Shown in pieces: positions 22,110 to 62,589 of a DNA stretch of 64,000 nucleotides (positions are counted from its first letter, which is position 1; each line of letters opens with the position of its first letter). The notes under the pieces were generated by a model, which ran no database searches, had not been told where the DNA came from, and saw only the letters and a list, made by a program, of their open reading frames with translations. The stretch spans positions 61,472 to 125,471 of IMG/VR virus record IMGVR_UViG_3300035703_000025, one strand, 5' to 3'. The position numbers and the translations under genes were made by a program. The stretch comes from a virus.

Positions 22110-22111
22110 TT

Positions 22112-23221
22112 TTATCTCAGCATTGATACTAGCTTGGGACCAACCACTTCATACGAAAAGGTGTTGTGCATGTGTCTTACGTTTTCTTTTGCGATTTTTT
22201 CGTAGTGCCCATTTGCGGCCCTTCTCATCTTGAGCATCATTTCGGAAAGAGACCCCTCCATCCACTCTCCTCTGTGAGAATACAGTCCTGGAACTATCGC
22301 GCCCTTTGACATGGCAAAAACTGGCTTGCTTATCATGTCCTTCACTGTTGGCTCGTAACCTGAAGGAAACATTCTTTTTATACCGTTGAAGTGAGTTGCT
22401 ATTACTGGTTTGCCCATTGCTGCTGCATCAAAAGCTGGAATGCACTCGCCCTCTCCACGAGAAGCACTGACAAAGCAATCACAGCTGCCGTGAATAGCAG
22501 CTAATTCATTTTCAGGCAAAACATCAGTGATAAGGTATATTTTAGGGTGCAATCTTTCTGGTCTTTTAATTTCAGACTTTAGAGATTCTATAGACGCCTT
22601 TACTGCGTCTAGTGATTCCGATGGATTTTTACCGTCAATATATGTTTTTATAACAAGAGAAACGTTATCTCTAGATGTAAACTCAGACAAAAACGCCGCA
22701 ATTGTACCAGAAACATTCTTCCTGTACGAGTAATCTGAAATAGTGTAAAACTTATACGTGTCTTGTATTTCTTCTGGAAGATCTAGCTTTTGGTTACACC
22801 AGTTATTATATTTTGAAAAATCAGCTGGTCTTGTTACCATACCAATCGGAGCAGTAACACCAGAATCTACAGCAGCCTCAATTTGCTCTGGCGTAGTCAT
22901 CCATATCTCGTCCATCAAATTGCAAGAGTACTGCCAGCCAGAGTCAGAAAACGAAGAAGTTTCCCAATAAAAAAGACCGATGTTTTTTACCCCTTCAGTT
23001 CTAACAAATGTGTTTGGAATCGTTTGCTGAATTACAACATCCACGCCATCAAGCGAGCCGCCCTCTTTTATTTGGGCGTCAATAAAGTTTGGTCTTTGAT
23101 TTAAACTAAACCAAATTGGTGTTACGTCTACTCCTTGACCCTGTAGGCACTTAATAAAATCTCTAGACGAGTTTCCATAACCGGTGCCATCACGGTAAAC
23201 AGATATGTATGCTACTCTCAT
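22112..23221 (-). CDS. GT4-family glycosyltransferase
   Basis: 369 residues. N-terminal MRVAYISVYRDGTGYGNSSRDF carries the Gly-rich acceptor loop; the C-terminal domain has DCFVSASRGEGECIPAFDAAAMGKPVIATHFNG at ~250-282, the classical GT4 E-x7-E donor-binding motif. ATGA overlap with the upstream transferase gene. Likely builds the same glycan as its neighbours; acceptor unknown. Confidence 0.9.
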   Translation of the reverse strand: MRVAYISVYRDGTGYGNSSRDFIKCLQGQGVDVTPIWFSLNQRPNFIDAQIKEGGSLDGVDVVIQQTIPNTFVRTEGVKNIGLFYWETSSFSDSGWQYSCNLMDEIWMTTPEQIEAAVDSGVTAPIGMVTRPADFSKYNNWCNQKLDLPEEIQDTYKFYTISDYSYRKNVSGTIAAFLSEFTSRDNVSLVIKTYIDGKNPSESLDAVKASIESLKSEIKRPERLHPKIYLITDVLPENELAAIHGSCDCFVSASRGEGECIPAFDAAAMGKPVIATHFNGIKRMFPSGYEPTVKDMISKPVFAMSKGAIVPGLYSHRGEWMEGSLSEMMLKMRRAANGHYEKIAKENVRHMHNTFSYEVVGPKLVSMLR

Positions 23222-24885
23222 ATTAATTTCACATTCCCTTTATTTTGGACTGCGCTCTTTTTATTAACATTGCTGAAATATCGATTTTGCTCGAAATTGT
23301 TCCTTTCAAAGACTTCCTTATTTGCAATGTTGTTTAGTTTCTCAAGATTTATGTCGTTTCCAGTGAAAGCGGAGTTGTTGTTCATAACATCGGATATTGC
23401 CGCCATTTGAAACGGTGTCCCCTGCATACACCCCCTAGTGAATGCGTGAGAAGCTATAGAACAAGCATTAAAGGCATCATAAGATCCATTACTCTGCAGA
23501 TTAATGTAGCTAGAAATATTCGGCGGTGCAAACCATCTAAACGGGTTTTTTGCTGGTATGGACGAGAATATATCGTCCCATTTTTTAGCAAAACCATCAC
23601 TTGAGTGATAATGCTCAGCTGTCTCTCTAGCAAGAGATTGCATCAGTAGTCTTTTTTCTTCGCCTTCTTGCAGGAAGCTAGTCAATATTTCCTCCAAGTG
23701 CTTATCGTCTGGAACGCCACGAATCTGACTAGTCTCTCTGACAGACTCTTGCTTCCAGCCAGCCATTCTTACCTGTCCGTATCCACCGCCAAGTCTAGCT
23801 AGCTCATACGGAGCTGCGTAATCCACAGAAACTACTGGGACACCACAAGCCTTTGCTTCAATTATTGGAATCTCAAGTGCGCCAGCTACGCTATACTGAA
23901 TATATAGATCAGCAAGGTTGTAGATTTTTGCAAGCTCCTCTCTTGTTGATCCGTTAGATGTATTTGCCATTGCGCAGGCTTTGGCTCTGCACTTTGGGCA
24001 ATACTTTCTATCTCCAGAATAAAAACCAGGAGTGGACTGCTTGCACGTCTGGCAATAATAAGTAACTATTACTCTATTGCCAACACCGTATCTGATTATC
24101 TCTTTTGGGATATCAAATCCGCAATCTGGATTTCCTGTATGCAGATATAGATAGGTCTTATCAGCGATATCTCCAAGCCCAAGCTTGTACAAATTATCAA
24201 GAGCGTTTGCGAAAGCGCTCATAATATTTGGAAAAAGCTTTCTTGGCTGATTTCTCATTACGGTCATTATGATATTTGCGTCTTTTGGTATTCCGTACTC
24301 TTCTCTAATCTTTATTTTGTCCATAGGCTTGAAGACATCTATGTCAACGCCTGGCATAGTATCTATTTGAGATACGTTTAGCTTTCCTCCACCGTATTTT
24401 CTAAGAACATTAAGCCCCCATTGCGTGTACGATGTTAGCAAATCAACAGTTGAAAATGTTGATAGCCATTCATCTCTTGGTGGCTCTGAATCAACACACG
24501 CTGACCATATGTAAGTATAATACGGTCTTGACGGCGATTTTGTTATAAATTCATCATGCCAGTAATCCCGATAGGAAAAAACAATATCTGGCTTAAAATG
24601 ATTTACTGCACTTTCAAATCTTAACGAGCCGAACTGCGAGGTTTGATATTCGCGTTGGAATCTCTCCATCTCGTCTTTTTTCGACTGCGATGGTATTACT
24701 GGATAAACCTTCCAAGGCAACTGATTTATTCTTGGATCGTCATCTGAAACATAAGATGCTAGCTCCGCAACCTCGTACTTTCCGCTCTTATGAAGTCTTG
24801 AAAGGACGTCATATGCCATAACAGAAAAGCCTGTGTTTAGCAGGCTAAATTCACTAACTAGCAGAATTCTTTTTTTATCGCTCAC
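23218..24885 (-). CDS. GT4-family glycosyltransferase with inserted zinc ribbon
   Basis: 555 residues, larger than typical GT4 enzymes (~370). N-terminal LLVSEFSLLNTGFSVMAYDVL is the acceptor loop; the donor motif is VAGALEIPIIEAKACGVPVVSVDY at ~335-360. Between them, at ~285-310, sits a zinc ribbon with paired Cys (YYCQTCK and YCPKCRAKAC), and a ~110-residue Asn-rich C-terminal extension follows. The start is GTG, overlapping the end of the preceding small gene by 11 nt. First and largest transferase of the cassette. Confidence 0.85.
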   Translation of the reverse strand: MSDKKRILLVSEFSLLNTGFSVMAYDVLSRLHKSGKYEVAELASYVSDDDPRINQLPWKVYPVIPSQSKKDEMERFQREYQTSQFGSLRFESAVNHFKPDIVFSYRDYWHDEFITKSPSRPYYTYIWSACVDSEPPRDEWLSTFSTVDLLTSYTQWGLNVLRKYGGGKLNVSQIDTMPGVDIDVFKPMDKIKIREEYGIPKDANIIMTVMRNQPRKLFPNIMSAFANALDNLYKLGLGDIADKTYLYLHTGNPDCGFDIPKEIIRYGVGNRVIVTYYCQTCKQSTPGFYSGDRKYCPKCRAKACAMANTSNGSTREELAKIYNLADLYIQYSVAGALEIPIIEAKACGVPVVSVDYAAPYELARLGGGYGQVRMAGWKQESVRETSQIRGVPDDKHLEEILTSFLQEGEEKRLLMQSLARETAEHYHSSDGFAKKWDDIFSSIPAKNPFRWFAPPNISSYINLQSNGSYDAFNACSIASHAFTRGCMQGTPFQMAAISDVMNNNSAFTGNDINLEKLNNIANKEVFERNNFEQNRYFSNVNKKSAVQNKGNVKLI

Positions 24886-36422: not shown

Positions 36423-37298
36423 TTAATTAAGTATCCATGTTTGAGGTCTATTATTCCATAGACCAGTATTTAATTGCGAATATCCTAAGTCTTTCATCGC
36501 CCTTGAAAAAAAAGAACCCATAGATGTTGATTTTATTTTAACATTGTTTCTTTTGTAAACATCAAAGTGACCAATTGCTTTTGCGGTAAAAGCATTTGCG
36601 ATAATCATTCTTTTTGGTTTAATTGCTTTAAATATCTCGTTAAGATGATCAATTGGGTCTTCGAAGTGCTCAAAATACTCAGAAGCAAACGCAACATCTA
36701 CATTGGTAGCTATATCTGCAGCGCTTTCAACAAGACCGAAATCATATTCATTTGATAAAAAGCTAGCCACCCTCCATTGATCTGATGCTATGATATTTGT
36801 TCCAATCACAGAAGCGTCTGGAAAGGCTTGTTTAAAGGCTGCGCTTGTTATACCAATCCCATTGCCAAGATCAGCTATAATAGAGCCTTTTTTGATCTCA
36901 CCGAAAATTCCTCTAGGTATACAAACTGTGGGAATTGCAATTTCTTTTATGTACTTTCTTGAGTACACTAACCAACAAGCCCAAACCTCACTTAAATACT
37001 CTTTTTTGCTGTATATCTCATACGCGGGACTACCGCTAGATAAGCGATCGTACCAATCTAGCATAAGAAGCTCTAGTTCTTTTGACTTATTTCTTTTGTC
37101 CTTTGGGTTTTTAAGATGATCAATAGTTTGCTTTGCAATTTTTAAAAGATGGTCTGTGTCATCTATGCCAGAGCATTCTAGTATGCTCCTAAAAAACATT
37201 AGACCCTGTGAAGATGTCATATTCCAAAGCTTATAGCTAGGTTTAGAAAAAGAACACGCTCTTGTTTTTCTCTCAATATTGTTTTGAGTGATCTTCAT
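36423..37298 (-). CDS. SAM-dependent methyltransferase (class I)
   Basis: 291 residues. Motif I is IIADLGNGIGITSAAF at ~140-156, followed by VIGTNIIASDQW as the acidic-loop region and VDVAFASEYFEHFEDPIDHLNEIFKAIKP at ~200-230, the usual post-I to motif IV arrangement of class I methyltransferases. The ~135-residue N-terminal domain is unrelated and may bind substrate. AGGA lies 6 nt before the start, downstream of a terminator, so its transcription may depend on read-through. Target unknown. Confidence 0.75.
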   Translation of the reverse strand: MKITQNNIERKTRACSFSKPSYKLWNMTSSQGLMFFRSILECSGIDDTDHLLKIAKQTIDHLKNPKDKRNKSKELELLMLDWYDRLSSGSPAYEIYSKKEYLSEVWACWLVYSRKYIKEIAIPTVCIPRGIFGEIKKGSIIADLGNGIGITSAAFKQAFPDASVIGTNIIASDQWRVASFLSNEYDFGLVESAADIATNVDVAFASEYFEHFEDPIDHLNEIFKAIKPKRMIIANAFTAKAIGHFDVYKRNNVKIKSTSMGSFFSRAMKDLGYSQLNTGLWNNRPQTWILN

Positions 37299-40282: not shown

Positions 40283-40734
40283 TTCGTGGCCTTTTCAATC
40301 TGATCCTCAACCCTTACAATTGGTTGATTAAATATACGTTCTGAGTTTTTAACAACAACAAGAGTGTTTGCTGTTGACTCTATAAAGTCCTGAGTAGATT
40401 TTATCTTTTTAGGCGAGTAGCCTCCACCGTTTTTTACAAACTTCTGCTTAGAAAGCTTAAGAATCTCCTTGTAGACCTTTTGTATTTGTGGTGGCCATCT
40501 TTCTTCTATGCCTTTAAATGGTATGTAAACTATATACGGTATCTCAGTCTCTTGGCAGGCGTATATAAAATCAAGCTCAAATCCTATTGATGCTCTTGAT
40601 ATACAAATAGAACCATCTACTTCTATAGAGCTGAGCTGCGAGATAATTTGATTTCTAACAAATAGCCTGGCTGGATCGTTAAGATCGTATGCTCCATTAA
40701 AATTTACGGCTTCAGCTTTTATACCAATAATCAT
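40279..40734 (-). CDS. SLOG/DUF1273 (YpsA)-like nucleotide-binding protein
   Basis: 151 residues. ASIGFELDFIYACQETEIPYIVYIPFKGIEERWPP (~47-82) matches the SLOG outline 'G-D--AA-----IP-I--IPF--Q---W'. Family members bind nucleotides or ADP-ribose derivatives; several occur in phages and stress systems. No catalytic residue can be certified. Sits between the nuclease and a dNMP kinase, overlapping each by 4 nt. Confidence 0.55.
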   Translation of the reverse strand: MIIGIKAEAVNFNGAYDLNDPARLFVRNQIISQLSSIEVDGSICISRASIGFELDFIYACQETEIPYIVYIPFKGIEERWPPQIQKVYKEILKLSKQKFVKNGGGYSPKKIKSTQDFIESTANTLVVVKNSERIFNQPIVRVEDQIEKATK

Positions 40735-41369
40735 ATATACTGACTCAGTATTGACTTGATGGATTCGTTTTTCTCATCCATATTCATATCATCGTTTCTG
40801 ATTGTATGAAATTTCTTTATATTGCTAAAGTCATAGTTATCAAGGGCCGTTTCGCTTTCATGCTGGTTGTTCAGTGGGTTTCTTGTAAACTTGATAACTA
40901 TAGGCTCGTAAAAGGTAGCATAGTTAATCTCATTTGGAAATCTCGCGTCTGATATGAGAGCAAAATCTAGACCCTCTTCCTTTATTTTTTTAATTGTCGC
41001 TTGTACCCAGCAGTCTTGGTAAAATCGTCTAAATATATTTGTGCCAAAGACCTGCATGACATCTCTTGCGGTCATGTAATCATCGCATCTTGATCCTGGC
41101 TTGTTTTGCATTATCATTGCTATATCAGTGCTGCACATGGGCAAGTCGCACCACTTGAATCTAGTGTTTGTGTTTTTGTCGGAGTTCTCACCCCAGCATT
41201 GATTATATTCAAGACCCAAAACATTTATGCATACCTGTTTTAGCGCGTCTGCAAATGGATAAACTTTTGATGAATAACCGTGCTCTTTTAGAAAGCCGCG
41301 AACGTAAGAACAAGCAGTGTCTTTTCCGCTCTGCGCTTTGCCCGTCATTATAATTATTTGTGTCTTCAT
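40731..41369 (-). CDS. Deoxynucleoside monophosphate kinase
   Basis: 212 residues from the ATG overlapping the primase stop (ATGA); an upstream in-frame extension of 12 residues is not favoured. Walker A is MTGKAQSGKDTA at ~8-19. MTARDVMQVFGTNIFR and FALISDARFPNEIN match T4 gp1-type dNMP kinases. The enzyme would phosphorylate dNMPs for the phage polymerase and, as in phages with altered bases, could accept a modified dNMP. Confidence 0.85.
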   Translation of the reverse strand: MKTQIIIMTGKAQSGKDTACSYVRGFLKEHGYSSKVYPFADALKQVCINVLGLEYNQCWGENSDKNTNTRFKWCDLPMCSTDIAMIMQNKPGSRCDDYMTARDVMQVFGTNIFRRFYQDCWVQATIKKIKEEGLDFALISDARFPNEINYATFYEPIVIKFTRNPLNNQHESETALDNYDFSNIKKFHTIRNDDMNMDEKNESIKSILSQYI

Positions 41370-42403
41370 TTTGATAGAACTTTTATTTGTGGCAAAACTT
41401 TGCAATTAAATTCTTCCAAAGACAGCATGTCTGGGTCTTTGTTGTCGGTAAGAATTTTAGATATAGAGAATCGTGAATTAAACAAGGATTTTATTTTTGA
41501 GGCAGCTTTTGTTCCAGCTTCGTCAGAATCAAGCATGAGGCCAAGTTTTACAGCGCCAACCGAATGCAGAAGGTCTGCTTGCCTGTTTGACATCGATGAA
41601 CCCATTATACCAACAACGTTTTTTATGCCGTACATGTGCATTCTCCAGCAATCAAAAGGCCCCTCAACAACAACCGCAAATCCAGATGATTTGATTTCGT
41701 CGGCCGCATTGTTTATGTTGTAGATTTCAATCGATTTGTTGAATCCCTTTGGGTAGTGTCTCCATTTTGCGTAAAGTTTTCTATACGTTTCATCTATCGT
41801 ATATTTTTCTGGAAAATACCATCCTAGCTTGTTCTTTTCAAATATTGATCTTCCAGTTATACCAACCAAGTCACCGTTAATATTCCTGATTGGAATCATT
41901 AATCTATGGTGGTAGGTCTTTCCATTTAGGGAGACACCAGCTTCGAAAAACTCGCAAACCTCTTCAGTAAACCCCCTTGATTTGATAAACTGATGACATT
42001 TATCAAGTTTCGAGAGCCTGCCATCTGATATAACTTTGTTGCTGATAATTTCTTGACGGTTTCTAATTATTGAAAAATCATTGAAATCGTCTGACTCTAT
42101 TACTGATTGTATCCACTCTATTGCTTCGGCAAAGCTTATTTGCCTTAGCCCACGAACAAGCCCAATAATATCATTGCCGTATTTTTGATGACATCCATGT
42201 GTAAAGCAAGACCAACAGCACTTACCAAAGTGATAACTAAAAGCCGTTGGGTTGTCTCCACCGTGAACGGGGCATTCTTGTTGGACAGAAGAGTTTCCAT
42301 TGAATTCAAAACCAAGAGCCTGCAAGATTTTGTAGTCATTCTCGCAGGCAATCTTTTTGAAGATTTTTATTTCTTCAGAACTCAATATCGTCTTCGTCGT
42401 CAT
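41366..42403 (-). CDS. DnaG-type DNA primase
   Basis: 345 residues with start at the ATG (MTTKT), preferred over a TTG three codons earlier. N-terminal CHC2 zinc finger: C44-P-V-H47 and C63-W-S-C66, with C71 nearby. TOPRIM: FAVVVEGPFDCWR at ~225-240 holds the conserved Glu, and LGLMLDSDEAG near ~290 the DxD. It lacks the C-terminal helicase-binding domain of long bacterial primases. Makes RNA primers, working with the DnaB-type helicase encoded immediately upstream. Confidence 0.93.
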   Translation of the reverse strand: MTTKTILSSEEIKIFKKIACENDYKILQALGFEFNGNSSVQQECPVHGGDNPTAFSYHFGKCCWSCFTHGCHQKYGNDIIGLVRGLRQISFAEAIEWIQSVIESDDFNDFSIIRNRQEIISNKVISDGRLSKLDKCHQFIKSRGFTEEVCEFFEAGVSLNGKTYHHRLMIPIRNINGDLVGITGRSIFEKNKLGWYFPEKYTIDETYRKLYAKWRHYPKGFNKSIEIYNINNAADEIKSSGFAVVVEGPFDCWRMHMYGIKNVVGIMGSSMSNRQADLLHSVGAVKLGLMLDSDEAGTKAASKIKSLFNSRFSISKILTDNKDPDMLSLEEFNCKVLPQIKVLSK

Positions 42404-48611: not shown

Positions 48612-48622
48612 CATAAATACAC
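48612..48622 (-). promoter_or_regulatory. GTGTATTTATG box
   Basis: Begins in the dUTPase stop codon; the first T of TATTTA lies 12 nt before the ATG at 48607. One nucleotide off the 11-nt rule, so weaker evidence. Confidence 0.35.
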
Positions 48623-49050
48623 TAAACACCAGTGTGCCCAAACCCACCATCGCCTCTAGATGTAAGGGAAAGGTCTGAGGACTCTGAGAAATCAGGCTTG
48701 ATAACTTTTGCAAACACCATCTGGGCGATCCTATCACCAACTTTTACATCGAAGGCGTTGTCACTAAAATTCGCCAAGATTACACCAACGTCACCGCGAT
48801 AGTCAGAGTCAATGGTTCCAGGTGCGTTTAAAACAAAAATTCCATTCTTAAAAGCAAGGCCGCTTCTTGACCTTATTTGAGCTTCAATGTTTGGTGGCAT
48901 CTCAATAGAGATGTTTGTTTTTACAAGAGCTATTTTACCTGGTTCTATCGTAGTGGAAATAGCAGAGCACAAATCTACACCAGCAGATCCAGGGGTAGCA
49001 TATTCTGGAGTCTTTGCGTTATCAGAAAGCTTTTTAATTTTTACTATCAT
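48622..49050 (-). CDS. dut: dUTPase (trimeric)
   Basis: 142 residues with all five dUTPase motifs in order: PGSAGVDL, RSRSGLA, GTIDSDYRGDV, RIAQMVF and the C-terminal Gly-rich arm RGDGGFGHTG. It hydrolyses dUTP to dUMP, keeping uracil out of DNA and supplying dUMP to ThyX, which is encoded elsewhere in the window. Confidence 0.97.
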   Translation of the reverse strand: MIVKIKKLSDNAKTPEYATPGSAGVDLCSAISTTIEPGKIALVKTNISIEMPPNIEAQIRSRSGLAFKNGIFVLNAPGTIDSDYRGDVGVILANFSDNAFDVKVGDRIAQMVFAKVIKPDFSESSDLSLTSRGDGGFGHTGV

Positions 49051-49294
49051 TGGTTTCGATCTTATTATAGTTCTTCATATAAATTTCTCTAAGCTTTGTT
49101 ATTTCTTCATCCGACAAACCACCTTTTATTTGCTGACACTGCTGGTGTTTTTTAGAAAACAGATCCCTTATTGATCCTAAAAAAAGACCGTAGACAAAAA
49201 AGGGAACGAGAAAGAAAACACAAAGACCAACGACGATAGGATCGTGCCACTTAGATTGTCGATAGTGCGCTTCTTTAATTTCAATTTGTTGCAT
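49034..49294 (-). CDS. Small single-span membrane protein
   Basis: 86 residues from the ATG; a TTG three codons earlier gives a longer form. One strong membrane segment at ~18-40 (IVVGLCVFFLVPFFVYGLFLG), the rest polar and charged. Overlaps both the phosphoesterase and dUTPase genes. Could anchor a complex to the membrane or act as a superinfection protein; unproved. Confidence 0.55.
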   Translation of the reverse strand: MQQIEIKEAHYRQSKWHDPIVVGLCVFFLVPFFVYGLFLGSIRDLFSKKHQQCQQIKGGLSDEEITKLREIYMKNYNKIETNDSKN

Positions 49295-50039
49295 ATGTTC
49301 CAATTTTTAAATTACCAAGATCGTCTTCATAGAGGAAGGTGCAGTTATCCTTTTCGGTCCAGCATCCGCAATTTGCGTATAGCAGACCGTTGACCTCAGT
49401 AATCTTCGGGTTGTGAAGATGGCCGCACACTACTCCATCGTAGCCTTTTTCTTTTGCGTATCTGCATATCACATCTTCAAAGCTTTCAATAAACTGAGCA
49501 GCTCTCTTGACCTTAATTTTTACGTACTTAGATAAAGACCAGTAACGCATACCAAGTATTCTGCGGCACCAATTAAAGACATCATTTAAGTCAAGCATTA
49601 TCTCGTATCCAACATCTCCTAGTTTGTACAGATAAGAACTAATCGGGTACTTGGTCAATAGGTCAAATTGATGACCATGAAGGACTAAAAACTTCTTACC
49701 GTTCTTTGTTGTGTAATCCATTCTTTCGTAAAGAGAAATGTTGCCGAATATTTCATGGCCTATAAACTTTGCCATAAACTCATCATGATTTCCGTAGATG
49801 TAATGAATCCTAGCTCCCTTACGGGAAAGCTTCAAAAGTCTTTCCACGACTTCGACTTGTCCAATCTGCTTCTCATGGCGCATTGAGAAAGCGTCTTTAA
49901 ATCTCCAAATATCAATGATGTCACCAACCAAATAGATGTTATCAAAGGTATTAGATTTTAAAAATTCAGTCAATGGCTTATGTTTTGCCTTTTTTGAAGC
50001 AAGGTGGAAGTCTGAAAGAAAGACAGTTTTGTAATGCAT
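49281..50039 (-). CDS. Metallophosphoesterase (LpxH-like)
   Basis: 252 residues of the calcineurin-like fold: LSDFHLAS (D10, H12), LVGDIIDIWR, IYGNHDEF, LHGHQFD and VCGHLHNPKI, i.e. all metal-binding motifs in order. The motif set and length recall UDP-2,3-diacylglucosamine hydrolases, but phage homologues often have other or unknown phosphoester substrates. TAATG overlap with the reductase gene suggests a link to nucleotide metabolism. Confidence 0.85.
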   Translation of the reverse strand: MHYKTVFLSDFHLASKKAKHKPLTEFLKSNTFDNIYLVGDIIDIWRFKDAFSMRHEKQIGQVEVVERLLKLSRKGARIHYIYGNHDEFMAKFIGHEIFGNISLYERMDYTTKNGKKFLVLHGHQFDLLTKYPISSYLYKLGDVGYEIMLDLNDVFNWCRRILGMRYWSLSKYVKIKVKRAAQFIESFEDVICRYAKEKGYDGVVCGHLHNPKITEVNGLLYANCGCWTEKDNCTFLYEDDLGNLKIGTYATN

Positions 50040-52006: not shown

Positions 52007-52984
52007 TCAGTTACGGTATTCTTGTTCGATTTTTTGGGCGTAAATGTCCACACCGTACTTCTTGTAGAGATCGAAATTCTTCATGCCAATAGTTTGTCGA
52101 TCTTGCGCCGAAGTGCTAGCCATCTTTTTTGTCAATTCTAACAAAGATTCAAAGTCGTCACACAGCCATTCGTCTGTCTCAAGCATTTCTGGTATAGCGG
52201 AGTTTCTGTATGAGATGACTGGTTTTCCGCAAGAAAAAGCCTCAAGTATTGAAAAACAAAAGGCCTCGTTAGAAGATGGATAATGATAGACATCACAGGA
52301 GTTAATAATCTCCTGCTTTTGTTCATCGCTCACATTGGCAAATATATTAGTATTTTTCGCGCCTGTGTAATTTAGGTAGGCTGTAATACCATCAAAATAC
52401 TGTCGATCAAGAATCTCGCCGCCAATTATAAAATTATTGTTTGGCATGCGCGCAGAACAATAAATTGTGTCATGAATCATTTTTGATGGGCAGAAGCTTG
52501 AAACGCGGCCAAAAACAGGCACTTCTCGTTGCTGAGTTATTGACTCTGTGGAGCAAAGACCATACTTAACAATTTCAAAATTGCTAACGTTGGGGCTGAG
52601 TGAGCGCTGATACTCAGAGCTGAAAAAAATCTTGTTAAATTTCGATGTATCAAAACCGACAGTCTGCCCACATAAAACACTTGCGAAAAGCTTGCACTTT
52701 GGTAATGCGTCAATGAAAGACAGCTGTTGTGAGCCAGGCACAAATATGTGGATAACATCTGGGGAAAACCTGTTTAGATGATCCGTAAGATTTTGATCGT
52801 ACTCAAAGTTATTATTTGCAAACAGATACGTTTGCCCAAGCTTAGAGAACTTTTCCCTAAAAGGACCGTCAACACATCCAGCAAACATCATTTCGTGGTT
52901 TTTTGAAAGTGTCTGGGCTAAATTAAAAGACGCAAGAGACGATCCTCCTGCGTTAAAGAAGTTGTTTATAAAAGCTATTCGCAT
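52007..52984 (-). CDS. GT-B glycosyltransferase
   Basis: 325 residues from MRIAFINNFFNAGGSS, preferred over an upstream start by the Gly-rich GT-B acceptor loop and an 11-nt TATACT box. The donor domain has VYHYPSSNEAFCFSILEAFSCGKPVISY at ~245-272 with the GT4 E-x7-E pattern. Transcribed alone, divergent from the Cys-rich late unit. It may modify a phage glycan or host surface. Confidence 0.85.
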   Translation of the reverse strand: MRIAFINNFFNAGGSSLASFNLAQTLSKNHEMMFAGCVDGPFREKFSKLGQTYLFANNNFEYDQNLTDHLNRFSPDVIHIFVPGSQQLSFIDALPKCKLFASVLCGQTVGFDTSKFNKIFFSSEYQRSLSPNVSNFEIVKYGLCSTESITQQREVPVFGRVSSFCPSKMIHDTIYCSARMPNNNFIIGGEILDRQYFDGITAYLNYTGAKNTNIFANVSDEQKQEIINSCDVYHYPSSNEAFCFSILEAFSCGKPVISYRNSAIPEMLETDEWLCDDFESLLELTKKMASTSAQDRQTIGMKNFDLYKKYGVDIYAQKIEQEYRN

Positions 52985-52989
52985 AATTA

Positions 52990-52995
52990 AGTATA
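52990..52995 (-). promoter_or_regulatory. TATACT box, leaderless-type
   Basis: The first T is exactly 11 nt from the A of ATG at 52984 (TATACTTAATTATG); no ribosome site. Back to back with the + strand box at 52997. Confidence 0.5.
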
Positions 52996-52996
52996 G

Positions 52997-53007
52997 GTGT
53001 ATAAATA
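52997..53007 (+). promoter_or_regulatory. GTGTATAAATA box, T4-late-like
   Basis: Contains TATAAATA, the exact T4 late promoter core, 19 nt before the ATG at 53019. A leader of a few nucleotides is possible; no strong ribosome site. Confidence 0.55.
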
Positions 53008-53018
53008 AAAGTACAGTT

Positions 53019-53621
53019 ATGGATACCAAAGAACCAGATTATATTTTTACAACTCGTGAGGCCGCAGAAAACATGGCTAAAAAACTAGGCTGTGGCGGAA
53101 CACAAGAGTTTTATAATATAGATGGAAAACAGGCTGGATTAAAGGCCGATACTACTTATTATTTGCCCTGTTCTTCGCGTGAAGCCCTGCACAACAATCT
53201 TTCCAAGTATAAGAAAAAGATGGCTAAGGCTGAAGATCTAAATATAGAAGATATCGATTTTCTAGAGTGCGAAGGCCCAGTTTCTTTTGATGCTTTTTTA
53301 AGATCGTACTTTACTCAAGGCGGTGACTACGTTAGCGATTCTGTTCGCAGCACGCTAAAGAAAAAAGCTGACGACTACAATAAAAAAGGAAAGCATAAGA
53401 TACGGGTCTCTACTTTAATCACTGTTTTCAGAAGAGGCATTGGTGCTTACAAAACAAATCCGCAAAGCGTAAGACCAAATGTCAGAAGCGCAGACCAGTG
53501 GGGATACGGAAGGGTTAACGGTTTTTTACACGCACTTAGAACCGGGTCTTTCAAGAGAAAACCGTTTGACACAGATCTACTACCAGGAACGCACAGGCTT
53601 TCTAGCAAGGGGAAAAAGTGA
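53019..53621 (+). CDS. Conserved phage protein, DUF5824-like
   Basis: 200 residues from the ATG (MDTKEPD); a longer reading would start inside the divergent promoter. The end, VFRRGIGAYKTNPQSVRPNVRSADQWGYGRVNGFLHALRTG, followed by DTDLLPGTH, matches a short conserved domain found in many phage proteins of unknown function (GRVNxF...DLLP). N-terminal half carries a helix-turn-like segment. GTGA overlap with the Cys-rich gene downstream. Confidence 0.65.
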   Translation: MDTKEPDYIFTTREAAENMAKKLGCGGTQEFYNIDGKQAGLKADTTYYLPCSSREALHNNLSKYKKKMAKAEDLNIEDIDFLECEGPVSFDAFLRSYFTQGGDYVSDSVRSTLKKKADDYNKKGKHKIRVSTLITVFRRGIGAYKTNPQSVRPNVRSADQWGYGRVNGFLHALRTGSFKRKPFDTDLLPGTHRLSSKGKK

Positions 53622-54559
53622 ATAACAAATTAGAACAAAAAATAAAACGTCTTTTGGTTGCAAACAAAGCCACCGCCGCTGATTGTCGGAGGCCAGAGGG
53701 TCGATTTCAGGTTGTAGCAAATCCAACAACTAAAACCGAGGACGAGCGCGGAAATCCTATAGAAGTTGCAACAGATCCTTTGAATTACGTGTACAGAGAC
53801 GCTACGGCAAAAGATCTGTGTCCAACATGCACTTCAGCCTCATCATCACAGGTATGCCAGTGCCTAGACGCTTATTTGCAGTACGATTATTACAATTTTT
53901 ATTGCTCTAGTGGCGGTGGGTTTGGTGACGTACACGAGCCGGCACCAAGACAGCTTCCAGCTGGATGTCCGTCTTTTGCAAGCCTTGGAATGGCTGGTGT
54001 GATTAGTAATTATGCTGGATCAGTAGATAATCCGCTTGAGGCGGTCCCTAGAACATACAGAATGCTTATTGAGTATCTTACTGGTCGATACCCAGGGGAT
54101 ACGACGATCCCAGGAAACTGGGTAAACGTATTCGGGCCAACGCGATTAACAGAGCCTGACATGCAGGCTCCGACAACCCCAGCCATATGGCAGCAGTTTT
54201 GGGATGGTACTCACCCGTACTCACGCTCTATTACATCTAGCCCGTTCTTTACGCCTGGAGGGCTGCAGCTCGCAAAAATGATGTTTGATGCTAGATGCGG
54301 TATACGAGCAGAAGCGACATCTGGGGCCTGCTGTTCTGTAGCTGGAGATTTCGGGGGGTTCTCGTGTGCGGAGGTTGGAGGGCCAGGAGAATGTCAAAAC
54401 GGAACGTTTTATTCTGGAAAAACCTGCGAACAAATCGGAGGCGACAACTGCGGGAAAAGCAAAATTAGCGTAATAGCTCCGCAAAAAAGGGAAAACATAC
54501 AGCTTGGTACGGCTTCGATAACTGATATGATCATCAGAGCACTAAAAGGTAGTGTATAA
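53618..54559 (+). CDS. Cys-rich late protein with N-terminal tag and GACC-type module
   Basis: 313 residues, GTG start overlapping the previous stop with AAGGGG upstream. Basic amphipathic N-terminus (KLEQKIKRLLVANKATA), a middle region with CPTC and VCQC, and a C-terminal module ACCSVAGDFGGFSC...GECQNGTFYSGKTC...GDNCG. This module is a variant of the 'GACC--C---C-G-F-G--C' repeats seen in secreted proteins. The next gene has the same module, so both are paralogous in part. Role unknown, probably virion surface. Confidence 0.6.
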   Translation: MNNKLEQKIKRLLVANKATAADCRRPEGRFQVVANPTTKTEDERGNPIEVATDPLNYVYRDATAKDLCPTCTSASSSQVCQCLDAYLQYDYYNFYCSSGGGFGDVHEPAPRQLPAGCPSFASLGMAGVISNYAGSVDNPLEAVPRTYRMLIEYLTGRYPGDTTIPGNWVNVFGPTRLTEPDMQAPTTPAIWQQFWDGTHPYSRSITSSPFFTPGGLQLAKMMFDARCGIRAEATSGACCSVAGDFGGFSCAEVGGPGECQNGTFYSGKTCEQIGGDNCGKSKISVIAPQKRENIQLGTASITDMIIRALKGSV

Positions 54560-54568
54560 GGTATTATA

Positions 54569-55351
54569 ATGAAAAAGTCAATAGAAGAAAAAATTAGATT
54601 AACGGCACTAAAACAAACACCACCACCGCCAACGCTTTTAAAAAAGCCTGAAGGTGTAAATGAAGATCTTATGGGTGGTGGAGGCGGTGAAACGGTTGAT
54701 ATCTGTGGAGTGCGTATCCCAGCACAGATTCCGTATCCTTACACAATCACTATAGCGTACGATTGGATTATTACTAGCATGTACTGTCAGCCGAACCCAC
54801 TAGGCCTTGAATACGGGTGCACCCCAGTACATGCTGGTCCGCCACTTGGCTCTATTGTCGGGATTGGCCAGGTTACCGATAGAGATGAGCCATTAACTTG
54901 GATTAGGAGTCACCCTGAGTTTAATCCAACAGATCCCGCAACATGGGGTTCTGTGTGGGGTCCAGGTGGTCTAGCTGAAAGATTCGTAAGATACCTTAAT
55001 TGCCAAATGGGTGAGGACGGTGTGTACGGAACCGGACCGTGCCCAGGTATTACCGATGCGCAAATTAACGAAATGGTTGACCTACTCAAGCAGCTGTGGC
55101 TTCGCAAATGTGGTTTTGCTGTATCTCAAGCTGGTGCTTGCTGCTCTGTAGTTGGAGACTTCGGCGGATTTGCGTGCACAGAAGTTGCTGGAACAGCTAA
55201 TTGCCAAGGAACTTTTTACCCAGGACAAAGCTGCCAGCAGATAGGTGGCGACAATTGCGGTTTAGCACCAAATCCACTTCAGAAAAACAACCAAGCGAAA
55301 AAACAAAAAGAGGTAATGGAAGCGGTAATGTCAATTCTTAAGGTTAGATAA
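54569..55351 (+). CDS. Cys-rich late protein with N-terminal tag and GACC-type module
   Basis: 260 residues: basic tag (KSIEEKIRLTALKQ), Pro/Gly linker, a domain with CQPN and CTPV, and a C-terminal module ACCSVVGDFGGFACTEVAG...NCQGTFYPGQSCQQIGGDNCG that aligns with the previous protein. Spacing of the six Cys is conserved between the two. Possible disulfide-rich virion component; unusual for proteins made in the cytoplasm. Confidence 0.6.
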   Translation: MKKSIEEKIRLTALKQTPPPPTLLKKPEGVNEDLMGGGGGETVDICGVRIPAQIPYPYTITIAYDWIITSMYCQPNPLGLEYGCTPVHAGPPLGSIVGIGQVTDRDEPLTWIRSHPEFNPTDPATWGSVWGPGGLAERFVRYLNCQMGEDGVYGTGPCPGITDAQINEMVDLLKQLWLRKCGFAVSQAGACCSVVGDFGGFACTEVAGTANCQGTFYPGQSCQQIGGDNCGLAPNPLQKNNQAKKQKEVMEAVMSILKVR

Positions 55352-55832
55352 AAAAACACTCTTTAATCTTTTCTACGGGCTTGAGCGCAGACTGCTCAAG
55401 TCCGTATGTTTTTCCGTAACCAAGATCTAAAAGATTGCTGTCTTTAATAAGATCTGATCCTGTGCACCAACCAGCTATTTTATATGAAGGGCACTGACCA
55501 ACAACTAAAACGTAAATCTCAGAAGGTGTCTCGTTCTTTGACTGTCTAGCTAGCAGCTTACCAGTTTTGTATTTTGTCGTTTTAACGTCTATTGTTTTGC
55601 CAAACGCAAATACATCATGCGAGCCTTTTCTCGGACTTATGGACATATCTGGGTATAAATTAAGGGCTTTGCAAAAAGCAAACTCACCACAAATTCCTTC
55701 AAGATCGGTTTCTTCGCAGGACTGTGGTCCGATTTTCCCATCTGCAACACCACCACTCCTATTTGAAGAGTGGCGCTGTTTTGCAAGCCATTGGCAGATA
55801 CGAACTTCTGATTCAGTTAGTTTTATTAGCAA
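55344..55832 (-). CDS. Restriction-fold nuclease-like protein
   Basis: 162 residues from a TTG overlapping the previous stop by 20 nt. GICGEFAFCKALN provides the N-terminal Glu, and HDVFAFGKTIDVKTTK (~72-87) the D...DxK catalytic core of a PD-(D/E)XK nuclease. The Cys-rich N-terminal part (QSCEETDLEGIC) may bind metal. No target can be named; its 3' end also carries the + strand terminator. Confidence 0.6.
   Translation of the reverse strand: MLIKLTESEVRICQWLAKQRHSSNRSGGVADGKIGPQSCEETDLEGICGEFAFCKALNLYPDMSISPRKGSHDVFAFGKTIDVKTTKYKTGKLLARQSKNETPSEIYVLVVGQCPSYKIAGWCTGSDLIKDSNLLDLGYGKTYGLEQSALKPVEKIKECFFI
55375..55413 (+). terminator. Strong Rho-independent terminator
   Basis: A 12-bp stem acgggcttgagc/gctcaagtccgt (one G.T) with a 7-nt loop is followed by atg and five T. 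It lies inside the 3' coding end of the convergent nuclease gene. Confidence 0.75.
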
Positions 55833-56997
55833 TCGCTGGTACTTTCATTATACAAAGATTTTCGTTAGTATTTTCATTTACTACTGGGCATCTTCCTTTT
55901 ATCTTTGCAATATCGTAAAACCCAACAACTGCAGCGTGTATATTATCCCATTTAAAGTCATCAACAATTACTAGTATTTCACCATTAAAAAGCAAGCAGT
56001 TCTTCAGATCTCCTAGCACAGTTTCAAAAGAATGACCGCCGTCTATAAAAATAAGAAGCTTTTCGTCAAATGAGTTTATCTTGTTTATCACACTTGGCAG
56101 TGTTGCAGAAGAAAGCCCAGCGACTACAAAAACTTGTGAATTAAAAATTGCCCCGCAATCATTAAGTATGCTTTTTGCTTCATCGAAAGTTAACGGTGCG
56201 TCTTCTGGGGCACCTTCATAAGTTGGGGCTGTATCAAAAAGATCAAGCAAAAAATGCGCTTTTGCATAAGATCGAGGTATAACCTCAAGAGATGTGCCAA
56301 GCCTGTAACAACCGACCTCAATGTAATAATGTGGATCAAACCAGACAAGGCTAGCCAATATGTCACTAATCTTTTCGCCAACTATGTTTCTTACTTTTTT
56401 GGCGTTTTCATTTTTTTTAAATAAAACGTCTATTTGAACCGTTTCATTATTGAGCTTGTTTTCATTTACTATACATGTAGGTAAAAAACCAATGGTCATC
56501 ATTTTTTTAATAACATCTGTTGCTTTTGCAGAGCCTGCATTGTATTCAACAATAGGAAGCTCAACAAGAACCCAGTTTGCTTTTTGAATTACACATTCGC
56601 CACCTCTGATAATTGACATCTCAGCACCTTGAGTATCAATTTTGATAAAATCAAAAGCGCAATCAGCCAATAGATCGTCAAGACGAATAGTCTCTAGGCT
56701 AATTGTGTTGTAATTGCCTTCGCTGTAAAACTCAGTATTTTCTTTAAATGAAGAAGCCCCCTGGCAAGTTGGTTCGTTTTTGTTTATAAAAAACTCAACT
56801 GTCTTTTTTTCATCACCAAGTGCGCAAATCATATAATCCGCGCCGCACTCTATGAGTGCGTCTTCACAGGCTGGATTAGCTTCTATTGAGAGAATTTTTG
56901 CTTCTGGATTTAATCCCTTGAATTTTAAAAACGACTGGCCGACATTTGCCCCAATGTCAAGTATTTTCTTAGAGTCTTTTATAATCTGCTCAAGCAT
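55813..56997 (-). CDS. FkbM-type methyltransferase fused to a second methyltransferase
   Basis: 394 residues. Residues 1-195 are an FkbM domain: ILDIGANVGQSF (motif I), VEFFINKNEPTCQGASSF and FIKIDTQGAEMSIIRGG, the signature FkbM sequence. Residues ~220-394 are a second Rossmann methyltransferase domain of the class with LIFIDGGHSFETVLGDL and ILVIVDDFKWDN. FkbM enzymes O-methylate sugars or antibiotics, so the fusion fits the nearby glycosyltransferases. Overlaps the downstream nuclease gene by 20 nt. Confidence 0.8.
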   Translation of the reverse strand: MLEQIIKDSKKILDIGANVGQSFLKFKGLNPEAKILSIEANPACEDALIECGADYMICALGDEKKTVEFFINKNEPTCQGASSFKENTEFYSEGNYNTISLETIRLDDLLADCAFDFIKIDTQGAEMSIIRGGECVIQKANWVLVELPIVEYNAGSAKATDVIKKMMTIGFLPTCIVNENKLNNETVQIDVLFKKNENAKKVRNIVGEKISDILASLVWFDPHYYIEVGCYRLGTSLEVIPRSYAKAHFLLDLFDTAPTYEGAPEDAPLTFDEAKSILNDCGAIFNSQVFVVAGLSSATLPSVINKINSFDEKLLIFIDGGHSFETVLGDLKNCLLFNGEILVIVDDFKWDNIHAAVVGFYDIAKIKGRCPVVNENTNENLCIMKVPAIANKTN

Positions 56998-57889
56998 TTA
57001 TTTTTCTTTCTTTAAGAATAGACTTCATCTGATTATACGAGTTTATTCCGTGGCTTGGATCTGAAATGTCTGCGTAGCCAAAACTACAGGCGCCAACGTT
57101 CTCATTAACTAAAAGCCTGCATCCACACATAGCAGCTTCAACTACTGTTCGCGCAGACGCCTCTTTCCAGTTTGGTGTGTGTATAAAGAACGTAGCCTTA
57201 TTCATAACTTCTGCTATTTCTTGCGGAGTTCCAGTCCCTAAATAGTTTTGTTGATCTATGAGATCTAGATTTCCTCGCCCAATAAACTTTATGTTGTTTC
57301 CAAACATATACTGGGCTTCAACAACGCCCTTGGCTTCTGTTATTGCCCCGACATATAGAACGTTAATTGGTCTTTCGTATCCTTTATTATGGAATATATT
57401 AGCGTCTATTTTTTGGAAATAGCAGAATGAGTTTGGAATTTGATTACCAATAAACTTGCACCACTCGTTATAATGAAGTGGGCTTAAAAATATATTAACA
57501 AAGCTGTTGGCCATCAACCCAGCCATAAATGTCTTTATTGCGTTTGGTTGGTATCTAACATCTGGTTGTATCATCCAGCCGCCGTATTCTTCTGGGGTTG
57601 CTCCAGTATACGCGCATTCAAAAACAACAGTTGGTTTTTTAGTATTTAAAAACTGTCTTTGCTCAGCAGGACCAAACCATTTTGATCCGCCTGGATCATT
57701 GAATAAATCAAAAAACACACAAAGATCTGCACTGTCTGGTGCCTGAAAAAGATCATTTGGTGTTATAACGTTTACAAAATACCCAGCCTCTTTCAAAGCA
57801 TTAATAAGATCTCTGCCAGTGGTATGGCCACCGCTTAAATAGTAATCGTCGCATAGAGGGCTTATAATTGTATAAATATTTGCTATCAC
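56990..57889 (-). CDS. GT-B glycosyltransferase
   Basis: 299 residues from a GTG start (MIANIYTI), chosen because an 11-nt TATACT box precedes it. SGGHTTGRDLINALKEAGY near the N-terminus is the acceptor loop; RPINVLYVGAITEAKG and ATFFIHTPNWKEASARTVVEAAMCGCRLLV hold the donor domain. Overlaps the FkbM gene by 8 nt. Likely acts on the same sugar structure as the methyltransferase. Confidence 0.8.
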   Translation of the reverse strand: MIANIYTIISPLCDDYYLSGGHTTGRDLINALKEAGYFVNVITPNDLFQAPDSADLCVFFDLFNDPGGSKWFGPAEQRQFLNTKKPTVVFECAYTGATPEEYGGWMIQPDVRYQPNAIKTFMAGLMANSFVNIFLSPLHYNEWCKFIGNQIPNSFCYFQKIDANIFHNKGYERPINVLYVGAITEAKGVVEAQYMFGNNIKFIGRGNLDLIDQQNYLGTGTPQEIAEVMNKATFFIHTPNWKEASARTVVEAAMCGCRLLVNENVGACSFGYADISDPSHGINSYNQMKSILKERKINA

Positions 57890-57894
57890 ATTTA

Positions 57895-57900
57895 AGTATA
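57895..57900 (-). promoter_or_regulatory. TATACT box, leaderless-type
   Basis: TATACTTAAATGTG places the first T exactly 11 nt before the GTG at 57889; no ribosome site. Confidence 0.5.
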
Positions 57901-57902
57901 GC

Positions 57903-57925
57903 AAAAACCGGCATTGCTGCCGGTT
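57903..57925 (-). terminator. Rho-independent terminator
   Basis: On the minus strand aaccggca-gcaa-tgccggtt is a perfect 8-bp stem with a GNRA loop, followed by T-run (ttttt). Ends the virion-type unit and precedes the promoter of the glycosyltransferase gene. Confidence 0.8.
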
Positions 57926-59625: not shown

Positions 59626-60303
59626 TCATAATTTATCTAGCAAAAGCTTTGGAATTGCCTGTGATGGCGTACCAACTAGCTTGTAACCCATATCGAATAT
59701 TGAGAATATGTTGGATATCTTGTTTGGAACAGAACCAAAGTACTCGTAATTTTCAAAGCCAGACACCTTGCATATTTTCGCTGCTTGTTTAAGCTCTCTA
59801 AGGTCTTTTGGGTTTGATAGAAATCCAGAAAAAACTAAACGGATCTCATCATATGGCGCAACAACGCTAAGCAATTTTGATAAATGCTCATCAGACTTTA
59901 TCCATGAAAACTCAACGGCAACCCGTTTCTCTACTGCCGAAAGCTCAGAAAGCTCCAGCAAAAACTCTCGCATCTTTTCGTAGTTACCAGACTCAACATC
60001 TCCTTTGTCTAGGCTTGTTATTACACCCATACAAGAACTGTTCATAATAGAAAAGGTCTTAACAAGGCAGTCAAGCGCACTGTCCTTGCTAAGACCCTGA
60101 TACGGGTAGTTTATGGCAGATATTAGTCTATTATTCTGCGGCAACCCTGGCTCAAAAAGATCCAAAGAAGCCGTATCAATAACACAACCGTAAAAACCGT
60201 GCTCATTTACAAAGGCGTAGTCGTATACAATTTTATTGCTGTTCGACTTTAGAGACAGGCTTGTTATGATTATTTTCTCTAGCAGTTCCTGACGTTTTGA
60301 CAT
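59626..60303 (-). CDS. Aldolase-like (DeoC/FbaB-type TIM barrel) protein
   Basis: 225 residues. The order CVIDTASLDLFEP, ISAINYPYQGLSKDSALDCL, VITSLDKGDVESGNYEKMREFL, RVAVEFSW and GTPSQAI follows the sequence of strands in deoxyribose-phosphate aldolase-type barrels, where the Lys pair would be catalytic. Length matches DeoC (~220-250). The catalytic lysines cannot be placed with certainty. It overlaps thyX by 71 nt. A role in deoxyribose salvage or modified-nucleotide supply is inferred. Confidence 0.4.
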   Translation of the reverse strand: MSKRQELLEKIIITSLSLKSNSNKIVYDYAFVNEHGFYGCVIDTASLDLFEPGLPQNNRLISAINYPYQGLSKDSALDCLVKTFSIMNSSCMGVITSLDKGDVESGNYEKMREFLLELSELSAVEKRVAVEFSWIKSDEHLSKLLSVVAPYDEIRLVFSGFLSNPKDLRELKQAAKICKVSGFENYEYFGSVPNKISNIFSIFDMGYKLVGTPSQAIPKLLLDKL

Positions 60304-61012
60304 TTGTTAAGCACTCCCAAGAAACCGGAAAAAGCGGCCCGATTATCTTGTCAAAAGCGTCAGCGTACTGTCTAACTTCCCATTGCGCGTGAGGGTCCGA
60401 TCTTTGTGAATACACGCGAGCGTATGCTGCAAGAGATCCTGTCCACCACCATTCTGTGTAGGCTCCCTGTGGCAGAATAGAGCGAGCCTGCTCTGGAGCA
60501 ACGCCTTTTTCAAGAAGGGTTTTATAAACTGTCATCGCCTCCTCAACAGCCATTGAATATGAGCGATTGATGTAATTATAATCATCGTTTATTTCTATAA
60601 AGTCCTCTGAACCCTGCTTGGCTCCATTTGTGGGCTTTGCTCGCCATCTTGGATGGTAAATATCAGGATCTTCTTGGACGTATCGTCTAGAAACTTCATT
60701 TTCGGTGAACCCAACTTTATGCTTAAAGAGTTGAGTGCGCACAAATATCGGAGCCTTGATCCTCAAAGTAATCTGTGGATGAGAAAATGGAGTCCAGTGC
60801 TTGTGCTCGGCTAGATATTTAATTAGCGCCCTGTCTTTTTGAGAAAGCGTTTTAACTGGACTTTCATCGCTTTCACCAAAAGGATAGTCCATTGTCCATG
60901 AGCTTTCCTTGTTGAATGAAACACGAGCAGAATTAACGACCGTCAGATCGTTTCCCATATGATCAACAAGCTCAACGTGTCCGTAATCAAGAACTCTGAT
61001 TCTCATTTTCAT
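60233..61012 (-). CDS. thyX: Flavin-dependent thymidylate synthase
   Basis: 259 residues. LFKHKVGFTENEVSRRYVQ (~95-113) corresponds to the ThyX motif RHRxxSxNExSxRY, with KHK and Phe/Thr instead of RHR and Ser, a variant seen in phage enzymes. QARSILPQGAYTEWWWTGSLAAYARVYSQRSDPHAQWEVR is the conserved C-terminal signature. Makes dTMP from dUMP using methylene-tetrahydrofolate and FAD. It replaces thymidylate synthase ThyA in this phage; dUMP comes from the dUTPase. Confidence 0.95.
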   Translation of the reverse strand: MKMRIRVLDYGHVELVDHMGNDLTVVNSARVSFNKESSWTMDYPFGESDESPVKTLSQKDRALIKYLAEHKHWTPFSHPQITLRIKAPIFVRTQLFKHKVGFTENEVSRRYVQEDPDIYHPRWRAKPTNGAKQGSEDFIEINDDYNYINRSYSMAVEEAMTVYKTLLEKGVAPEQARSILPQGAYTEWWWTGSLAAYARVYSQRSDPHAQWEVRQYADAFDKIIGPLFPVSWECLTNVKTSGTARENNHNKPVSKVEQQ

Positions 61013-61430
61013 TTGCCTTTTCTAGAACGTGATCTCTGTAGCATTTGTTAAAGTATTGTTTTATTTGTGGTTCGTCAAATTGTTCAGCGATAGTTACAAA
61101 CATTCTGTATGGCGACTTAACTATTATTTTTTCAACGCCATCAATAGATCCTAGCGCGTCAGCCATATCGTATGTTATAGGAAAGTTTACAAACACGAGA
61201 AATTCATTACTTTTTCTAAAAGCACACTGTGGACTAAACAGCGGTAGTATATCACCGTTTATTTCAATTGTTTTTGGAAATGGCGCGTCCTCGTCTGAGG
61301 AATCAAATATTCGCTTTGAGTTTGGGTCATGGCATTTGCTCATTTCTCCAGTTGGCTCATTGCAAATTGGACATAGGCGCTTTTCCCAGCGTATCTCTGG
61401 TTTTTTGGTCCAGTCAACTTTTTTCTTCAC
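60987..61430 (-). CDS. Zinc-binding protein upstream of thyX, unknown
   Basis: 147 residues: an N-terminal zinc motif LCPICNEPTGEMSKCHD (~19-34), a beta segment with SPQCAFRKSNEF, and a C-terminal half with ADALGSIDGVEKIIVKSPYRMFVTIAEQFDE, which resembles a scaffold-like fold of unknown function seen in phages. Overlaps thyX by 26 nt and the TAGT gene by 17 nt; co-translated with both. Confidence 0.55.
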   Translation of the reverse strand: MKKKVDWTKKPEIRWEKRLCPICNEPTGEMSKCHDPNSKRIFDSSDEDAPFPKTIEINGDILPLFSPQCAFRKSNEFLVFVNFPITYDMADALGSIDGVEKIIVKSPYRMFVTIAEQFDEPQIKQYFNKCYRDHVLEKANENENQSS

Positions 61431-62589
61431 TGTTTGTCTTTCTTCTGTATAATCTCATGCCGTATTCATTATCGGTCGAAGACGGTACAACACCTTCTTT
61501 AAAAATAGGAGTATTGTTTTTAAAAGGAGAGTAGTCAACTTGGTGATGCCATCTTCCAAATTTCCAAATAACATCAACAACATCTGGGTGTTGCTCTTTT
61601 AGAGAGTTAGCAAATGACCATCTGTTATCTCCAGTATTATAGACATTGTCTGTATTTCCGCCGCTCATAGCCTTTTTGCCTTTTGATCCAAAGGTCGCGC
61701 CCTTTTGCATCATTAGCGAACAAAATACAGCTGTACAGTATCCGTCTTTTAATAGTCTCAAAGACAGGTCTGTGTCTTCATTGTATCTCCCTCTCCACTG
61801 ATACGGCACGTTTGTGTCAAGGAGTATGCAGGAATATACTCTAGTATTAAAAAGCACCGGGGAATGTGCTGTCCATCCAACTTTTACAAAGCCAGAGTGG
61901 TGTGGCCCAGCCATGGCAATATTTTCATATCTGTCAACAAAATCCTCCATAGCATTAAAAAATCCACCACCGCCAACCTGTATTCTTCTTGTTAGGTTAG
62001 CTCTGTAAAAATGATAAATATTATCATCAACAACCCAGTGTCTTTTATGCTCTCTCTCTTTTGCCCAATTCCATATAAAATTACGAGCTGGTATTGATCC
62101 TTTTCCAAGGTCGTGGAAAGGCATTACAACAACCCGATCTTCGCCAAGTGCTTCTTTGTATTGATCTTCTTCTGTTTCTTCAACAAAAAACTTATAGTCA
62201 ACACCAAGCCCGTCTAGCGTTTTTCCAGTTACCTGTAACGCAGCCCTTCCTTTGCTAGGTATGCAGACTGGATATCTAGAGTTTGTCTTTGGCCCAAGAT
62301 ATTTGTACTCGCCAGGATCTGGTCCTGTCTGCTGTGGAAACCAAATTGATTTTTGTTTTGATCCACCAGAAAGGCCAAGCTTTTTGTAAAAAGCGCGCCT
62401 GTCTTCTGCTGTCAAAAAACTGACCGTTATCTGAGAATACGGCTTAATATTTTCATTATTAAATGCTGGCATTCCCCACCAATGGGACTTCCAGTTTGGT
62501 CCGACATTAAACAAAGAACCATCATCTTTTTTGATTGATTTTCTAGACAGCTTTTCTAAATCATCACTATTGGCTTCAAAAAATTCCAT
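61414..62589 (-). CDS. GREB1/TAGT-type glycosyltransferase
   Basis: 391 residues. N-terminal domain (~20-100) with HWWGMPAF, ITVSFLTAEDRRAFYKKLG and KSIWFPQQT is the phage domain usually fused to these enzymes. The catalytic part shows PVCIPSKGRA, RHWVVDDNIYHFYR (DDN in place of DxD) and WRGRYNEDTDLSLRLLKDGYCT. This set matches TET/JBP-associated glycosyltransferases predicted to glucosylate hydroxymethyl-pyrimidine bases in phage DNA. No TET/JBP oxidase or hydroxymethylase is visible in the window. First gene of a unit that continues into thyX. Confidence 0.75.
   Translation of the reverse strand: MEFFEANSDDLEKLSRKSIKKDDGSLFNVGPNWKSHWWGMPAFNNENIKPYSQITVSFLTAEDRRAFYKKLGLSGGSKQKSIWFPQQTGPDPGEYKYLGPKTNSRYPVCIPSKGRAALQVTGKTLDGLGVDYKFFVEETEEDQYKEALGEDRVVVMPFHDLGKGSIPARNFIWNWAKEREHKRHWVVDDNIYHFYRANLTRRIQVGGGGFFNAMEDFVDRYENIAMAGPHHSGFVKVGWTAHSPVLFNTRVYSCILLDTNVPYQWRGRYNEDTDLSLRLLKDGYCTAVFCSLMMQKGATFGSKGKKAMSGGNTDNVYNTGDNRWSFANSLKEQHPDVVDVIWKFGRWHHQVDYSPFKNNTPIFKEGVVPSSTDNEYGMRLYRRKTNSEEKS

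Follow-up and report, generated by a model that had tools for sequence, protein, structure and literature searches.

The window analysed here, a stretch of 64,000 nucleotides, corresponds to bases 61472-125471 of a virus record with a length of 125,471 bp. Four overlapping genes on its minus strand make up the locus of interest: the gene of a 391-aa glycosyltransferase of the TAGT family (61414-62589; PF20691, phrog_842), the gene of a 147-aa cysteine-rich protein (60987-61430), the gene of the flavin-dependent thymidylate synthase ThyX (60233-61012; PF02511, E-value 2.7e-45) and the gene of a 225-aa protein with weak fold matches, DERA-like and TIM-barrel-like (59626-60303). The overlaps were 17 bp (TAGT and the cysteine-rich gene), 26 bp (the cysteine-rich gene and ThyX) and 71 bp (ThyX and the 225-aa ORF). 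Elsewhere in the window we found genes of a dNMP kinase (40731-41405; PF21448, 3.4e-10), a dUTPase (48622-49050; PF00692, 1.4e-34) and, on the minus strand, a 291-aa class I methyltransferase (g137, 36423-37298) from a TAGT-associated family, a candidate for a second step of the modification. The TAGT-type enzyme, ThyX, the dNMP kinase and the dUTPase had all been named in the original prediction, and all of them are indeed encoded.

The same prediction supposed that an oxidase or a hydroxymethylase would lie outside the window. We observed that in two other records, L006 and L007, genes of the left end of the present record run directly into genes of its right end. The record is therefore nearly closed, and thus this idea could be tested in the remaining 61 kb. 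Two related genomes, G048 and G049, have lengths of 122.0 kb and 122.6 kb, respectively.

The 391-aa protein was confirmed to be a true GT-A glycosyltransferase of the TAGT family. It matched PF20691 with an E-value of 4.8e-40 and 138.1 bits (the curated Pfam cut-off is 27.5) and phrog_842 with 5.9e-40; the latter is the family of the T6 'beta-glucosyl-HMC-alpha-glucosyltransferase'. The T6 protein scored 37 bits on the PF20691 model, also above the cut-off. A direct comparison by hhalign of the TAGT profile with the T6 protein was weak (probability 7.6, E-value 0.0046); both nonetheless pass the Pfam model. The AlphaFold2 model of TAGT (pLDDT 81) had metal-dependent GT-A UDP-sugar transferases as its best fold matches, with Z of 12-14, while a sequence search of solved structures gave no meaningful match. 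The PF20691 match, the alignments and the fold placed the catalytic domain at residues 106-302 (61684-62274, minus strand). The motifs S-x-x-R, GxxxARN, W-x-x-DDN, N-x-R-x-Y and E-D were conserved in 34 relatives and several of them also in T6; RW(HH) was among the conserved motifs of the alignments as well. The DxD-like acidic motif is DDN at residues 188-190 (window positions 62020-62028), invariant or nearly so in the alignments.

Residues ~37-85 of the protein (WWGMPAF...KQKSIWFP; 62335-62481, minus strand) were assigned by HMM to an N-terminal accessory domain. This piece was recognised because the matches of relatives to TAGT began either at residue ~30 or at ~103. The domain HMM was built from residues 37-85 and relatives; a strict regular expression missed true members. 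In the 123 loci collected with TAGT alone, the HMM detected the domain, fused or adjacent to TAGT, in 112, and 8 of the 11 loci without it begin at a contig end. When virus contigs were searched with the domain alone, 79 of 80 loci contained TAGT; the single exception ended 2 bases past the domain ORF. All the phage records matched by the domain were TAGT records. The domain is dedicated to TAGT and was hitherto undescribed; its stand-alone copies matched no Pfam or PHROG family.

Three arrangements of this partner domain were observed: fusion to TAGT, as in the clade of the present phage, a separate small ORF just upstream, and the C-terminal portion of a longer protein encoded upstream. The last arrangement occurred in 48 TAGT loci, with the longer protein being mostly ParB-like (judged by eye; PF02195 was found). 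On a quick tree, with loci that include sets picked by the domain or by the methyltransferase, a minimum of 25 switches between arrangements was counted; therefore, TAGT and the domain have stayed linked although they fused and split again and again. In L230 and L232, two complete TAGTs, each fused to the partner domain, stood in tandem. A protein resembling a distant TAGT, with IPT..R and IDDD motifs, was located between the partner domain and TAGT in L234 and L257.

The family of the g137 methyltransferase adjoined TAGT in 17 of 202 TAGT loci. The reverse scan, made with the methyltransferase family, found TAGT within 4 kb in 50 of 80 loci. Among the close relatives, G000 and G001 have both genes, and G046, G048 and G049 have neither. 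The methyltransferase is thus linked to TAGT. A strict requirement of TAGT for it was ruled out by G003, where TAGT is present without g137. The Pfam matches of g137 were generic class I methyltransferases, and that it methylates the added sugar is therefore a guess.

Close relatives were gathered by a scan with the 225-aa neighbour protein. Comparison of whole records showed that TAGT is present in G000-G003 and absent from G046, G048, G049 and G050; the TAGT-less relatives include two near-complete records. Against G049, the difference was a clean insertion of ~1.2 kb containing TAGT alone. In one TAGT-less locus (L110) the small upstream gene and the cysteine-rich gene lie immediately side by side, with no TAGT between them, and in three others (L107-L109) a metallophosphatase gene takes the place of TAGT; all four retain, at ~80-96% identity, the cysteine-rich gene, ThyX and the 225-aa gene. 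Among the genes compared, the pattern of presence and absence of TAGT was matched only by a small adjoining ORF, g175 (109 aa). TAGT is an optional (accessory) cassette. The four genes had been predicted to form one unit. The ORFs do overlap, but they are not one functional unit, since close relatives without TAGT keep the other three. Where present, TAGT is under purifying selection: between G000 and G003 its pS of 0.69 was as in the neighbours, and its pN of 0.109, compared to 0.19-0.27, was the lowest of the unit. The TAGT-less genome G049 carries genes, both identified by eye, of a ParB-like protein (21414-22784; L135:1414-2784) and a PAPS-reductase-like protein (48956-49897; L136:8956-9897); they are missing from the present phage and may belong to another DNA-modification set.

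Both the cysteine-rich and the 225-aa proteins are neighbours outside the cassette. The former was 72-95% conserved in the TAGT-less relatives. Its earlier description as a zinc protein holds as far as the cysteines are concerned and finds no backing in Pfam, where no match exceeded the cut-off (PHD-like, E-value 0.056). The latter, found in the present phage group only, had no Pfam match, and a sequence search of solved structures gave nothing meaningful; its low-confidence model (pLDDT 62) was similar to a portion of a TIM barrel, and the weak matches (TM ~0.43) included several deoxyribose-phosphate aldolases. Searches of the phage records with the two proteins produced no meaningful relatives.

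With respect to enzymes that could make the acceptor, genes were called in the remaining 61 kb and most of them were scanned; the results on families refer to the matches listed, which for two gene sets comprised 25 families. In the whole record there was no match to PF12851 (TET/JBP), while the same search found one in G015. The 125-kb record had no match at E <= 10 to PF00303 (ThyA-type hydroxymethylase), and none in its whole length to PF11440 or PF09198 (T4 alpha-GT and beta-GT). Thus, what remains of the nearly complete record yielded no known oxidase or hydroxymethylase of the kind predicted to lie outside the window. Among 45 TAGT records, many of which are fragments, TET was present in one (G015) and a ThyA fragment in one. 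The phages phiAS5, Kuja, henriette, 1.076.O and 1.124.O had one ThyA or none; phiAS5, Kuja and henriette had a single one each, and neither a hydroxymethylase nor TET was detected in 1.076.O and 1.124.O. Among the few pairs of TET and TAGT seen was that of L190, a contig from a Winogradskyella MAG in which the gene of a TET/JBP-like protein lies close to a fused TAGT. The present genome does have a C5-methyltransferase-like protein, g035 (L002:15514-16122, minus strand; phrog_757, PPCTHL motif). Its distribution was patchy: it was found in G001 and G048 and was missing from G003 and G049. As a maker of the acceptor it was rejected, being missing from TAGT-carrying G003 and present in TAGT-less G048.

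The genome also has sugar genes of other families. A variable sugar locus at 52007-57904, 4-10 kb from TAGT and beside structural genes, includes two GT1 genes (52007-53029 and 56990-57904), a gene of an FkbM methyltransferase (55813-56997) and a DUF5843-like gene. It differed strongly among close relatives, including G046 and G048; G046 has there a UDP-galactopyranose mutase-like gene and other sugar genes instead. A larger glycosyltransferase cluster (19449-24885) of three GT1-type genes and one GT2-type gene adjoins tail genes and was conserved in the relatives covering it. A GDP-mannose dehydratase is encoded as well.

In divergent phages the neighbours of TAGT were ParB-like proteins, terminases, DnaB helicases and nucleotide-sugar epimerases, as well as a sliding clamp (by reading). 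Near TAGT in L009, L012 and L081 there was a nucleotide-sugar epimerase/dehydratase, UDP-xylose synthase-like by eye, which hints at the sugar donor. The characterised member of the TAGT family, that of T6, glucosylates DNA (PMC13216743, PMC13390438). The genomic neighbours and the T6 biochemistry favour DNA as the substrate, at slightly better than even odds. We interpret the locus, with a probability of roughly 0.55, as an accessory DNA-glycosylation cassette of the 'solitary TAGT' kind, consisting of TAGT with its dedicated domain and a candidate modifying methyltransferase. On the other hand, since the genome is rich in sugar genes (GT1, GT2, GDP-mannose dehydratase, FkbM), TAGT could work with them on a protein of the virion or a glycan of the cell surface rather than on DNA. 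The sugar locus and the larger cluster described above are consistent with such a role, as are the protein glycosyltransferases among the GT-A fold matches of the TAGT model and the lack of a detected acceptor-making enzyme for DNA in the genome. TAGT differs, however, in family from the other sugar genes, its partner domain frequently occurs joined to a ParB-like domain, the genes next to TAGT are those of packaging and replication, and the T6 enzyme acts on DNA (PMC13216743). We consider the role in protein or glycan modification unlikely, at about half the weight of DNA glycosylation. That TAGT could be a decaying or silent passenger gene might be suggested by the several close relatives lacking it; the low pN at an ordinary pS makes this hardly credible.

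If DNA is the substrate, the acceptor has to be accounted for. One proposed route would have ThyX or a variant of it make 5-hydroxymethyl-dUMP, the dNMP kinase phosphorylate it, and TAGT glycosylate the hydroxymethyluracil in DNA. ThyX adjoins TAGT here and, independently, in L083, the dNMP kinase is present, and the T6 TAGT overlaps a ThyA-like gene annotated as thymidylate synthase (by position gene 42). The signature of the present ThyX reads KHKVGFTENEVSRRY, not RHRx7S. Within KHK...NEVSRRY, the KHK and NExSRRY parts are common to ThyX of Lau218, LUZ100, Vibrio phage 1.026.O and Rheinheimera phage Barba3A, none of which was among the TAGT matches. We rejected the idea of an altered enzyme, as the motif variant is ordinary among phage ThyX. 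Moreover, of 250 TAGT loci only 5 had ThyX nearby, three of these representing a single lineage, and in the TAGT-less relatives ThyX, the dNMP kinase and the dUTPase were kept at 78-96% identity. The route through ThyX is therefore improbable, and the predicted modification pathway made of these three genes is not supported. Because the motif is shared with phages without a TAGT match and so few TAGT loci are near ThyX, we regard ThyX as ordinary; the three enzymes are taken to serve the usual dTMP/dTTP supply, judging from sequence. A less remote option, to which we would assign about one chance in three, is that the hydroxyl comes from an unrecognised phage enzyme or from the host (e.g., one of its methylases or oxidases). 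A large number of the encoded proteins had no assignment among the Pfam matches listed, and g035 is present. This option is weakened by the absence of g035 from TAGT-carrying G003 and by the fact that, among the genes compared, TAGT alone was clearly in the relatives having it and out of the others. With no other compared gene clearly tracking TAGT, such an acceptor-making enzyme would have to belong to the core that these genomes share. With regard to the predicted sugar-modified pyrimidine, the true TAGT and the DNA context in other phages speak for it, while its ThyX route is not supported and no known acceptor-making enzyme was found; hypermodified DNA is plausible and unproven.

Among known systems, phage ParB-methyltransferase DNA-modification proteins have a ParB-like domain beside a DNA-modifying enzyme. 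Here, in contrast, the enzyme is a glycosyltransferase and the connection is made via a separate small domain. TET/JBP-TAGT hypermodification systems were reportedly described by Iyer et al. in 2013; they share the glycosyltransferase family, but the present record has no TET/JBP, and we saw TET with TAGT only in G015 and L190. With the T2/T6 beta-glucosyl-HMC-alpha-glucosyltransferase the present protein shares the Pfam and PHROG families and common GT-A motif residues; the identity with the T6 enzyme is ~20% and the accessory domain is missing from the latter. The T6 TAGT acts after a hydroxymethylase and an alpha-GT; searches of the present genome gave neither. Solitary TAGTs, present without alpha-GT or beta-GT as here, were counted in 288 of 753 phage genomes, with their function left open; the accessible part of that article makes no mention of a partner domain, a ParB-like link or a methyltransferase (PMC13216743). 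Our literature search for TAGT together with ParB found no report. As far as checked, the dedicated partner domain, the ParB-like fusions, the linked methyltransferase and the optional cassette are new.

In the mechanism that we propose, the GT-A domain would use a nucleotide sugar and, with the partner domain, place its sugar on a base of phage DNA, either while the DNA is being replicated or afterwards. The partner domain may bring the transferase to DNA, a role suggested by its occurrence elsewhere as a separate small protein or as the tail of a ParB-like protein. A methyltransferase of the g137 type may then methylate the glycosylated product. The likely benefit would be protection from host nucleases. 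A broader proposal, which we put forward tentatively and hold to be rather doubtful, is that TAGTs with the partner domain constitute a widespread, self-contained DNA glycosylation without TET or hydroxymethylase: the base would be either unmodified or activated by a novel enzyme, the targeting domain would be dedicated and often ParB-linked, and a methyltransferase would finish the product in some phages.

The clean insertion or deletion of TAGT in close relatives means that the modification, should there be one, is optional and swappable. Hundreds of phages with 'solitary' TAGTs gain a handle in the near-universal partner domain, the recurrent ParB-like fusion and the linked methyltransferase family; cultured members are Vibrio phages 1.124.O and 1.076.O, henriette 12B8, Kuja and Aeromonas phage phiAS5. 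Modification of the DNA of such phages in the absence of any known hydroxylase would, if real, imply a new chemistry of DNA protection.
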